DNA of 33,442 nucleotides. Source: a virus. Made by a program: the position numbers and the translations under genes. Of this stretch, positions 24,368 to 32,569 are shown piece by piece. The stretch's first letter is position 1. Each line of letters starts with the position of its first letter. A model generated the notes under the pieces. That model worked only from the letters and a program-made list of their open reading frames with translations, had not been told where the DNA came from and did not search any database. Where the stretch lies: the IMG/VR virus record IMGVR_UViG_3300044634_001740, positions 1 through 33,442 of that record; one strand, written 5' to 3'.

Positions 24368-25521
24368 TTAAATTAAACTCTTTTTTGAAACTTTGTTATA
24401 TTTTTTTTCTTGATGAAAGAAAGCCAAAGCATATAATAAGCCTGCAATAGCATGGTCAAAGGCATCAACTGGAATACCAGCCTTTTTATCATTCCAAACA
24501 AAATTACTAAATTCTTTTCGGAGGTTATGGCTAGTCGATGTAATTATAATTTGATAGTCAGTTGCGGTTGGTATCATTTCGCTTGCCCCCTTGCAATAGT
24601 TATTACTTTCTTGGATGTTTAATCCTTTGCGCCTTAAATCCTCGACTAACCTATTTTGCTGGCCATGACTATCACCAATGATTAAATCGGTTTGTTTGGC
24701 TATCAATTGTTTGTTTCTGGTATATATGTCATCCGTTCCTAATTTACCAACTTCATAAAGTTCCTCATGTGCATAAATCTTTTTGTTCACTTTGTCAACT
24801 GCTACTTTGATTAATGTAGTAGGGTCAATTGCAAATCCATAATCTTGACCATAAACATAAGGTAGGCTATTATCAAAGTCTCCTGTGGTCCAGTTGGTGA
24901 AGATTGCGCCCTGTCTTGTTGCTCTTTCACCATTACCGTATATTTTCCACCAATACTCATTAGTTTGCCTACTTTCAATATCTTCAATTTGCGATTGGGT
25001 TAAAAATGGATTGTTTTTGTAGGTTGTGATTAACGGAGGGTATTTTTCGATGTACTGGTCGAGCCAATGTTCTAAACCTAATGCTGGATTATAATCGCAA
25101 ATGATACGATGTCTAGTTCTTGGAAATAGCTGGTCAATTGTTTCTTGTGGGAACTGGTGCGCCTCGTTTATCCAAATAAAGTCACGTGACCTACCATGTA
25201 TTTTTGCTGGAGTGTCCGCTCCATAGTAGCTGATCGTATTGCCATGCAAATTATAAGTGTGTTCGCTTTTATTGTGGTGCAAATCATTATACAAACCACA
25301 TTCTAATAAAACATCCTTAAAGTCCTTCCAAGCTGTGGCTCTTAAAGCAGTAAAGGTATCACGAACTATATCAATATCTAATCCTGTGTAATTTTCACAT
25401 AGCCAAATTAGGTAATAGATTACTGAATATGATTTTCCAGAACGAGTGCCACCTTGTAAAAGGGTTATCCGTTGGGACTTAACTTTTTTTTTAGAAACCG
25501 AAAGTTTGGATTACTTTTCAT
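24368..25521 (-). CDS. Terminase large subunit, apparently made by -1 frameshift
   Basis: The ATPase-nuclease frame is open from just after the stop of the upstream gene (25511) but has no ATG, GTG or TTG before the Walker A motif. An ATG at 25521 in the neighbouring frame encodes MKSNPNFRFLKKK, a typical terminase N-terminus, and reaches an A9 run (complement of 25484-25492) with A_AAA_AAG in phase. A -1 slip there yields a continuous 384-residue protein with Walker A GGTRSGKS (24-31), Walker B WINEA (about 117-121), and nuclease acidic residues in DYGFAIDPT (Asp227), IIGDSHGQ (Asp284) and DAFDHA (Asp353, Asp356). Without the shift the product stops after 18 residues. The alternative is a one-base error or real indel in the run. 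The TTG at 25294 would lack Walker A. Confidence 0.85.
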
Positions 25522-25822
25522 TGTCTTCTTCATTTAACCATTCTGGCAAATTCTTTTTACTCACCGAAACATCCATTGTTTGCCTTGCTTTCCCATAAGC
25601 CCTATCCAATAGCACTTCTGCAGCTCTTACATCGCCTTTAGCAGCTTTTGCTCGTAATGCCTTTAGTATTACTTCACCCGCTGTTATGCCGTCCTTTTCT
25701 TCGCCTAATACGTCAGCCAATAGCTTATCTAATTCGGGTAGTTTTTTAGGTCTGCCGTTTGGGTTTCCGCTTTCGCCTTTTTTGAAAGGTTTTAGGTTTT
25801 CTTTGTTCGGGTTCTTATTCAT
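25511..25822 (-). CDS. DUF5681-like protein, small terminase candidate
   Basis: This 103-residue protein has KPFKKGESGNPNGRPKKLPE (about 12-31), the Gly-rich basic signature of DUF5681, then helices including GDVRAAEVLLDRAYGKARQT. It lies between the methyltransferase and the large terminase, overlapping the latter start. Small terminase function is inferred from position; the DNA-recognition role is not visible. Confidence 0.7.
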   Translation of the reverse strand: MNKNPNKENLKPFKKGESGNPNGRPKKLPELDKLLADVLGEEKDGITAGEVILKALRAKAAKGDVRAAEVLLDRAYGKARQTMDVSVSKKNLPEWLNEEDNEK

Positions 25823-25824
25823 TG

Positions 25825-27327
25825 TTAATTCTCTGTTTTAACCCACTCCTTTGTAACGTCCTTTCCGTTCAATTTAATAGTCAGTTTCGGGTCAAGTTTA
25901 ATCATTCGCTTTACTATTACATCTGCATACTTTGGGTCTAATTCCATTCCATAACATTTGCGGTTTAGTTGGTGGGCGGCTACCATTGTTGAACCACTAC
26001 CTAAAAACATATCTAATACTAAGCCATTATCGGGGCAACTTGATTTTATTGCTCTTTCACATAATGGAATTGGTTTAGGTGTTGCATGACCTCCTTCGTC
26101 TCCTTGTCTTAAATGCCTTTCAAATTTCCAAACATTGTTAAAGTTATCGTGAACATTATTAAAATATGCACGAGTACTATAATATTCTTTTTTAAGTTCT
26201 TCGTATTCTTTTTTGAATCCTTCGTATCCTTTTGTTTTACTGTATTCTTTTAATGCTTCATAGTTTTCTTTTGTTGGAAAATTCCATTGCGATTTACTCC
26301 ACCAATGGTTTACAGTCCTACCATCTTTATAACCTAAAGCAGTAGCAATTTTACCATCTGACTCATTAATTTTTTTTATTTCTTGTTCTAAATAAATTCT
26401 TATTGGCTCCCATTTATCAAAGTAATTATCTTGATTGTTATTAAAGCCTTGAACTCCACACATTACAAATAAGCACTTTTCATCTGCTATTGCATAGCTT
26501 CTTGTATTTTCTGAATTTTGACCTTGACCGTGTCCTTTATCCCAAGTTATTAAATTTCTAAACGTTGCCTTTTGGTCTGCAATATATGGCTTTAATATTT
26601 CGCTATAAATATCCATAAGCGGTTCATCAATACCCCAACAATACCAGCTTCCATTTTCTTTTAGGTGCATAAATTGTAAAGCAATCCATTCACGATTAAA
26701 ATTTAATAAATCTGAATAATTTAAGTTATCATTTAAAACTCCTTCGTTTTCTTTTTTCATTCCATAAGGCGGGTCGTTGTGAGCCATATCAGCTTTACTC
26801 CCATCCATTAACTTTGCCACTTGGTCGCTATCTGTACTATCCCCACAAAGCAAACGATGCTCTCCTATTTCGTAAAGGTCGCCTAAAACGGTTATAGGTG
26901 TTTCTGGTGGTGTTGCATCAAAATCATCTTCTTCGGCTTCGATTTCTTCGGCTGTAAAGTCGGGAACGTCTAATCCCCAAGCGTCTAACTGCTCTGTATC
27001 CCATTCATTAGCCAAAGTGTCCCAGTCCCACTCTCCAAAACCAACATTATCTTTAATCGTAAATTCTTTTTTCTGCTCAATATTCCAATCGTCTGCCATT
27101 GTTATCCAAGTGTCTGGAATATCTTTAAATTTCAATTCTTGTAGGGCTTTTAGTCGCATATTGCCTCCAAGTGGATATAACATACCATCTGTATCTGTTA
27201 CGCAAACAATAGGGCGTTTTTCAAGCATTTCGGGAAAGTCTTTAATAGACTGCACCAACTTTTTAAACTTATCGGTATTAATTAAACGAGGGTTGTTTGG
27301 ATTTGATTTTAATTGACTTAGCTTCAT
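25825..27327 (-). CDS. ParB-like nuclease domain fused to a DNA adenine/cytosine-N4 methyltransferase
   Basis: This 500-residue protein has an N-terminal ParB/sulfiredoxin-like domain (about 1-120; KLSQLKSNPNNPRLI, PLGGNMRLKAL) and a methyltransferase with motif IV NDPPYGM (184-190) before motif I DMFLGSGST (439-447), the beta-class order of N6-adenine or N4-cytosine enzymes. No paired restriction enzyme lies nearby, so it probably protects phage DNA or marks it for regulation or packaging. It is the first gene after the late promoter candidate at 27340-27369. Confidence 0.85.
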   Translation of the reverse strand: MKLSQLKSNPNNPRLINTDKFKKLVQSIKDFPEMLEKRPIVCVTDTDGMLYPLGGNMRLKALQELKFKDIPDTWITMADDWNIEQKKEFTIKDNVGFGEWDWDTLANEWDTEQLDAWGLDVPDFTAEEIEAEEDDFDATPPETPITVLGDLYEIGEHRLLCGDSTDSDQVAKLMDGSKADMAHNDPPYGMKKENEGVLNDNLNYSDLLNFNREWIALQFMHLKENGSWYCWGIDEPLMDIYSEILKPYIADQKATFRNLITWDKGHGQGQNSENTRSYAIADEKCLFVMCGVQGFNNNQDNYFDKWEPIRIYLEQEIKKINESDGKIATALGYKDGRTVNHWWSKSQWNFPTKENYEALKEYSKTKGYEGFKKEYEELKKEYYSTRAYFNNVHDNFNNVWKFERHLRQGDEGGHATPKPIPLCERAIKSSCPDNGLVLDMFLGSGSTMVAAHQLNRKCYGMELDPKYADVIVKRMIKLDPKLTIKLNGKDVTKEWVKTEN

Positions 27328-31507: not shown

Positions 31508-31903
31508 ATGAATCAAAAACAAACAATGGCAAACTTGCATTTAGCGGTTTGTGTACGAGGCAACGCTACAAGTGAAGTCTACATCAGCGACCAGATAGCC
31601 TCTCTTATTAAGTCATTCTTAGGAATTGAAAAACAAGATTTATTTTCCAAAAATCGAAAACGTGAAATTGCATTAGGTCGGCATCTATACCGATACCTTT
31701 TAAGAATTTATTTGCCAGTTGAAAAAAATAGTTTAAATCTAATTGGTCAGCTTTCAAATTCAGATCACAGCACGGTAATCCACAGCATTAGGCAAATTAG
31801 GAATCTGTTTAGTTGCACAGATGATTTTTCATTAGCATATTCAGAAAAATTCACTAATATTGAAAACAAACTAAAAGATATGCTAACTTATGCTAGAAGC
31901 TAA
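31508..31903 (+). CDS. Stand-alone DnaA domain IV-like protein
   Basis: This 131-residue protein aligns by eye with the C-terminal DNA-binding domain of DnaA: KREIALGRHLYRYLLR (about 51-66) and SLNLIGQLSNSDHSTVIHSI (about 75-94), the counterpart of the DHTTV signature that contacts the DnaA box. The AAA+ domain is missing. It could mark the phage origin for the host DnaA, compete with it, or regulate transcription. It overlaps the next gene by 14 bases. Confidence 0.8.
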   Translation: MNQKQTMANLHLAVCVRGNATSEVYISDQIASLIKSFLGIEKQDLFSKNRKREIALGRHLYRYLLRIYLPVEKNSLNLIGQLSNSDHSTVIHSIRQIRNLFSCTDDFSLAYSEKFTNIENKLKDMLTYARS

Positions 31904-32569
31904 TTTAAGGGGTGTAATAATTCAAATCCCTACATCTTGGAGTGACGTTCCTTTTAAAAATTACATAAAGTTTTTAGATTGTGATTTCACACCGAAGTCA
32001 GTAGTTATGGCTTTAACGTCTATAAACTCAAACGACTATGATAGGCTTACTATTGCAGACTTAGGAGCTATCAATATTGCTTTATCATTTACAACCGATT
32101 TGCCAAATGCCTTTATTTCAGATGAAGATATAAAAAAAATAGATATCGGCTTTGAAACTTATGGCAAAATTGAACTATGCAAGGCTAAACTAATTGAAGT
32201 TGATAAACCATTCAAATCATTAATAACTATCTGTTCGACTTATCTTGAACGTGATATAAGCAACGAGCCAACCTCCACTATTTATCCCATCGGATGTTTT
32301 TTTTTGACCAAATTAATAGCTTTTTCGAGAAATACCAACGCCTTAATGACTATAAGCCATCGGCATTAGAAGAACTGGCAGATGTTGACCAGTTGAAAAA
32401 GTATGGCGCGAAAATTACTATTAAAAGTTTGTGCGATAAATTCCATAAAACAATGGGAGAAGTTCTGGCCATGAGAGCTGAAGAGGTGTATGAATACTTG
32501 CTTATAGACTTTGAAGAGCATCAATATGCTAAGAGATTAGACCAAGCTTCTAAACACATAAATAAATAA
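31890..32569 (+). CDS. Tail assembly chaperone-like protein read through a -1 frameshift
   Basis: Frame one (31890-32369, 159 residues) and an overlapping frame (to 32569) join at a T9 run (32297-32305) with U_UUU_UUG in phase. A -1 slip replaces the out-of-frame tail and gives 226 residues: an N-terminal domain (IPTSWSDVPFKNYIKFL) and a C-terminal helical domain (TIKSLCDKFHKTMGEVLAMR...EEVYEYLLIDFEEHQ). The two-part layout and -1 shift resemble siphovirus tail assembly chaperones (lambda gpG/gpGT). The location in the early plus-strand arm, far from the tape measure gene, is odd. A base missing from the run is the alternative. Confidence 0.5.

Follow-up and report, generated by a model that had tools for sequence, protein, structure and literature searches.

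In the dnaX gene of Thermus thermophilus, RNA polymerase slips in a length-dependent manner on nine A's of the sense strand, and the length of the run joins or parts the reading frames; the long product comes from faithful A9 transcripts and the short one from slipped transcripts, and both are functional (PMC1088944). In mxiE of Shigella flexneri, a bacterial regulator gene with a run of U's, insertion of one nucleotide joins two ORFs, and slippage is needed for the full-length protein (PMC1088944). Criteria for transcriptional slippage include a run of at least nine nucleotides, its conservation with the same ORF layout, and avoidance of such runs in the genes of the organism (Baranov 2005, PMC1088944). 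RNA polymerase of Escherichia coli shows less slippage on A runs than on T runs (PMC6260861). A ribosomal -1 shift, on the other hand, takes place in E. coli dnaX on an in-phase A_AAA_AAG, stimulated by a Shine-Dalgarno (SD)-like element upstream and a hairpin downstream. In tailed phages a conserved -1 recoding is described for the tail assembly chaperone, whose two products are needed at a set ratio (Xu et al. 2004, cited in PMC3711429). Streptomyces phage Hau3 has a terminase gene that possibly needs recoding, for which ribosomal bypass at a UUA codon is proposed (cited in PMC5009743). This possible bypass is the sole terminase case in the literature searched (subscription journals lying outside the search), which contained no homopolymer-recoded large terminase; the initial annotation of the locus described below was right to call recoding in a large terminase unusual.

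Here we describe a large terminase (TerL) gene that is almost certainly expressed through recoding. The DNA analysed (referred to as the window) is the IMG/VR record IMGVR_UViG_3300044634_001740 of 33,442 nt from an uncultured phage, in which no tRNA genes were found. All coordinates of its TerL gene refer to the minus strand. The features of the locus are:

24368..25521, minus strand: complete recoded TerL gene, predicted product of 384 aa after a -1 shift, matching the length of the in-frame relative L005 (384 aa)
25465..25521, minus strand: zero-frame start ORF of TerL, MKSNPNFRFLKKKLSPNG, 18 aa followed by TAA, providing the first 13 residues of TerL
25484..25492, minus strand: A9 slip site, CTA_AAA_AAA_AAG in the zero frame, with the heptamer A_AAA_AAG in phase; invariant in all A9 relatives
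24368..25483, minus strand: ATPase-nuclease frame of TerL, with 371 aa and a stop codon following the slip and Walker A GGTRSGKS
25511..25822, minus strand: DUF5681 gene, an ORF of 103 aa (Pfam DUF5681, 2e-17), upstream neighbour of TerL in the usual position of the small terminase

Directly upstream of the packaging genes, a 500-aa fusion of a ParB-like protein with an N6/N4 DNA methyltransferase is encoded at 25825-27327 (minus strand).

Translation of TerL starts at the ATG at 25521-25519 (minus strand), from which the zero frame reads ATG AAA AGT AAT CCA AAC TTT CGG TTT CTA AAA AAA AAG TTA AGT CCC AAC GGA TAA. The codons CTA AAA AAA AAG are numbers 10-13 of this frame and contain exactly nine A's (25492-25484), a run located 29 nt downstream of the start codon. 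Past the run, the -1 frame continues with GTT AAG TCC CAA CGG, read as VKSQRITLLQGGTRSGKS... and over a longer stretch as VKSQRITLLQGGTRSGKSYS..., for 371 residues up to the stop codon at 24370-24368, where the gene ends (24368). Seven codons above the A9 run, the -1 frame is closed by a TAA. From that TAA to Walker A it holds no ATG, GTG or TTG, in agreement with the earlier claim that the ATPase-nuclease frame has no usable start above this motif, and the first listed start, a TTG at 25294, is already past Walker A. The DUF5681 gene and the TerL body share one frame, with one or more stop codons between them.

The identity of the protein is clear from its Walker A ATPase and nuclease domains and from its matches to terminase models (Pfam Terminase_3, 7e-18; PHROG terminase large subunit, 3e-36); its profile also matches the solved terminases 2wbn, 5oe8 and 4idh. 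Relatives that encode TerL in frame start with M-(K)-(A/S)-N-P-N-(F/Y)-x-x-L, followed by R-x-x-L-L-Q-G-G-T-R-S-G-K. The motif (A/S)NPN(F/Y)..L lies in one frame in 78 relatives, which have one base more than the shifted genes. After a -1 slip, the shifted TerLs give the same N-terminus residue for residue and without a gap, as seen when MKSNPNFRFLKKK joined to VKSQRITLLQGG is set against MKANPNFDYLHDK joined to INEQRIILLQGG of an in-frame relative. The proposals of the initial annotation that the ATG of the neighbouring frame encodes a terminase-like N-terminus, and that a -1 slip joins the two frames exactly, are both borne out by these alignments. Since the 78 relatives have this N-terminus in one frame with one extra base, the -1 shift restores a normal TerL of 384 aa.

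The TerL of L005 (1806-2957) is 91% identical to that of the window; its N-terminal part resembles that of L010 and has a whole frame without a run. It appears to be a natural recombinant, with an N-terminal part of the L010 kind and a C-terminal part nearly identical to that of the window. In a structure model of L005, the first 13 residues hold a short helix ahead of the Walker A strand, with a pLDDT of only 55-63 in this region. The TerL of another relative (L274, around 2501) displays an apparent intein ending right before the SGKT of Walker A (...YHNYFVTNQKIITHN, followed by SGKTYS).

A protein search of IMG/VR gave 80 relatives and further scans gave more, with 97 readable junctions after removal of copies; the junction of L067, cut by the contig end, was left out. 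Eighteen junctions need a -1 shift (17 with A9-G, and one with A10-T in L043, where the ten A's also require the shift) and 78 start in frame. All 18 shifted junctions have a run of at least nine A's, but among the 78 unshifted junctions only 5 do (Fisher p = 2e-15, calculated on sequences that are related and not independent). Searched for as a DNA pattern, the A9-G junction was present in 23 contigs from 23 different metagenome records with differing flanks, whereas the same pattern with ten A's, corresponding to the in-frame A10-G form, gave 0 matches. The initial annotation was right that TerL has to slip by -1 on the nine A's, and the split recurs in 23 contigs and 18 distinct junctions. 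The main conditions under which that annotation would have failed do not apply, as A9 is kept in the close relatives and the A10-G form did not turn up. In a 69-codon stretch of DUF5681 next to the junction, 51 of the 54 conserved columns other than Met and Trp vary synonymously among the shifted relatives. The dS of the tested shifted pairs ranges from about 1.3 to saturated or beyond calculation, with the exception of the close L004, and the nine A's are unchanged throughout.

We consider it fairly probable that full TerL is made by slippage of RNA polymerase at the A9 run; the step in transcription, its efficiency and the benefit of limiting TerL are what we infer from the sequences. RNA polymerase would slip on the nine A's, and some of the transcripts would thereby gain a tenth A. 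Such A10 transcripts would be read straight through as MKSNPNFRFLKKK-VKSQR..., yielding the normal 384-aa TerL, and faithful A9 transcripts would yield the 18-residue dead-end peptide, so that the level of TerL would be reduced. Ribosome slippage on A_AAA_AAG possibly adds to the yield.

With regard to the criteria for transcriptional slippage, relatives that are not identical share both a run of at least nine A's and the ORF layout (18 distinct A9 or A10 junctions; 23 contigs). Avoidance of such runs was measured in 300 clustered ORFs of the phage group against 200 shuffles, in which synonymous codons were permuted inside each gene. Runs of at least nine A's occur 6 times against 22.5 expected, and 0 of 200 shuffles were as low. 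Runs of seven or eight A's are found at the expected frequency overall, and those with an in-phase A_AAA_AAA (66 versus 70.9 expected) or A_AAA_AAG (9 versus 11.4) are not depleted either. Long runs are thus avoided in the phage group, to which the measurement applies; scans of GTDB genomes for a host showed no relative. As the threshold of depletion lies between eight and nine A's and in-phase heptamers in shorter runs are ignored, the pattern fits slippage of the polymerase better than slippage on the heptamer. However, avoidance of runs of at least nine A's could also be explained by slippage during DNA replication, and the weaker slippage of E. coli RNA polymerase on A than on T runs likewise speaks against a transcriptional mechanism. 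Furthermore, only the wobble position of Leu is free to vary among the three A's beyond the heptamer, so the extra length alone is weak evidence.

In every A9-G case, an A_AAA_AAG is in phase, and ribosomes could slip on the same sequence. A programmed -1 shift of the ribosome as in dnaX or IS elements, in which a tandem slip on this heptamer would join the frames in translation, has to be weighed against transcriptional slippage; we regard it as possible but unlikely as the mechanism at this site. In L043 the phased heptamer is A_AAA_AAA. A terminase is needed in few copies, so that a few percent of shifting without stimulators could suffice. Against this stands the absence of both an SD-like stretch and a downstream structure. 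Inspection of the 8-16 nt that precede the run revealed no SD-like stretch in any of the members, although the host may not use such elements. The downstream fold of the window is no stronger than that of shuffled sequences (z = +0.67 and +0.22, in a search limited to stem-loops), and no pairs are specific to the shifted class, all being equally present in the in-frame relatives. A candidate conserved hairpin, a small pairing around LLQGG, was rejected because it is equal in the in-frame relatives and follows from codon constraints. In-phase A_AAA_AAG is also not avoided in the genes of the group (38 observed versus 38.1 expected). The dnaX-type slip of the initial annotation thus holds for the phased heptamer, an X_XXY_YYZ site, but not for the accompanying elements, and the conserved length of the run and the codon shuffles favour slippage that depends on run length. 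Ribosomal and transcriptional slippage may both contribute.

Whichever of the two mechanisms operates, the gene may have suffered a tolerated single-base deletion that accidental slippage rescues, with nothing programmed. This explanation appears rather improbable. Some in-frame relatives (L070, L073, L075 and L079) have eight or nine A's at the corresponding position, which places the shifted state one deletion away, and the close relative L005 has a whole frame. However, insertions of a single A are among the commonest mutations in long A runs, and one such insertion in A9 would restore the frame. The absence of in-frame A10-G copies (0 versus 23), despite saturated synonymous divergence, points to selection, or at least to the lack of a cost. 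The same count bears on phase variation at the DNA level, in which the run would flip between an off state (A9) and an on state (A10): runs of a single base are typical of contingency loci, but no A10-G contig was found and a packaging enzyme is an unlikely switch, which makes this reading exceedingly improbable. Error in sequencing or assembly of the homopolymer could not be excluded from one contig by itself. With 23 separate metagenome records of differing flanks, all A9, sequencing error is ruled out for the clade, and T10 and A10 runs elsewhere in the same data were assembled as ten, so A9 is not a homopolymer collapse; an error of either kind is practically out of the question. It is also very unlikely that the TerL body is translated without a shift, be it from a non-standard start codon of its own frame or through stop readthrough from the DUF5681 gene. 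The DUF5681 gene does share its frame with the TerL body, but three stops lie between them in L004 and two in L007, and such multiple stops rule out readthrough. An alternative start was rejected too, as no start codon above Walker A is conserved in the shifted set, and the NPNF motif is retained in the zero frame as in the in-frame relatives. An apparent defect of DUF5681 in some relatives proved to be merely a GTG start.

The tree built from the TerL body does not separate shifted from unshifted sequences, and a single clade of all shifted TerLs is rejected (AU p = 5e-6). For the N-terminal 105 residues, 16 shifted sequences of the DUF5681 type form one group, whose branch is unsupported; the shift label needs 3 changes here and 10 on the C-terminal part. 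The DUF5681 tree agrees with the N-terminal grouping, the DUF5681 allele travelling with the shifted TerL start. Taken together, the trees of both TerL parts and of the upstream gene suggest exchange of a 5' module between phages, and the shifted start looks like one such module spread by recombination. Two further relatives have upstream genes unrelated to the DUF5681 type and still need the -1 shift:

L043, 301-310: A10-T, single contig with unrelated upstream genes
L227, 532-540, minus strand: A9-G, single contig with unrelated upstream genes

These look like separate origins of the shift, with one contig each.

The window contains another potential slip site, conserved in these phages: a T9 run at 32297-32305 (plus strand). 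Slipping by -1 on this run would fuse the overlapping ORFs 31890-32369 and 32294-32569. The gene at this site is homologous to a gene split at T9 or T10 in many relatives (e.g. L010 4511, L070 3300), which in most of them lies about 1.5 kb below the Walker A of TerL. It has no PHROG match, and the site is probably a frameshift like that of the tail assembly chaperone. In the 300 clustered ORFs, T7-T8 runs are under-represented relative to the codon shuffles, and runs of at least nine T's are over-represented, almost wholly due to this second site.

The faithful TerL transcript gives only an 18-residue peptide, which leaves the shifted product as the sole possible terminase; any effect of the run on the amount of TerL must be a decrease. 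Judging from the genes alone, such a fall may be harmless or useful. We tentatively hypothesize a programmed throttle on packaging, a possible scenario about which we have some doubt: selection would hold the TerL run at A9, polymerase slippage would set a low and fixed supply of the motor, and the 5' module (DUF5681 gene, slip site and N-terminal ATPase part) would be exchanged as a unit; the trait would have more than one origin. Should the slip prove regulatory, TerL would be a first clear example of a packaging motor recoded at a homopolymer, and the idea that phages adjust packaging through a limited supply of TerL could be tested. Closely related terminases with and without the shift constitute a natural experiment. 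There is also a practical side, in that TerL is the standard marker by which tailed phages are found and classified, and at this locus gene callers would either omit the first residues or report a broken gene.

Both homopolymer recoding and recoding in phages are well known; what appears to be new here is the gene and its use. A study by Wernegreen from 2010, to go by its title, reportedly deals with homopolymer frameshifts maintained by selection, in bacterial genomes and not in phages. The tail assembly chaperone (cited in PMC3711429) shares with TerL a conserved -1 recoding in phages, but only the shifted product of TerL has a known use. Phage Hau3 offers a terminase gene as well, yet the bypass proposed for it (cited in PMC5009743) concerns an unrelated site and no homopolymer slip. 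The TerL site has the heptamer of E. coli dnaX in phase, without the SD-like stimulator or a shift-specific hairpin, and its zero-frame product is an 18-aa dead end instead of a second subunit. Like mxiE of Shigella flexneri, TerL would depend on a one-nucleotide insertion for the full-length protein, in a phage packaging enzyme and on a run of A's (PMC1088944). With Thermus thermophilus dnaX it has the sense-strand A9 in common; in contrast to that gene, the phage TerL would be functional only after slippage (PMC1088944).
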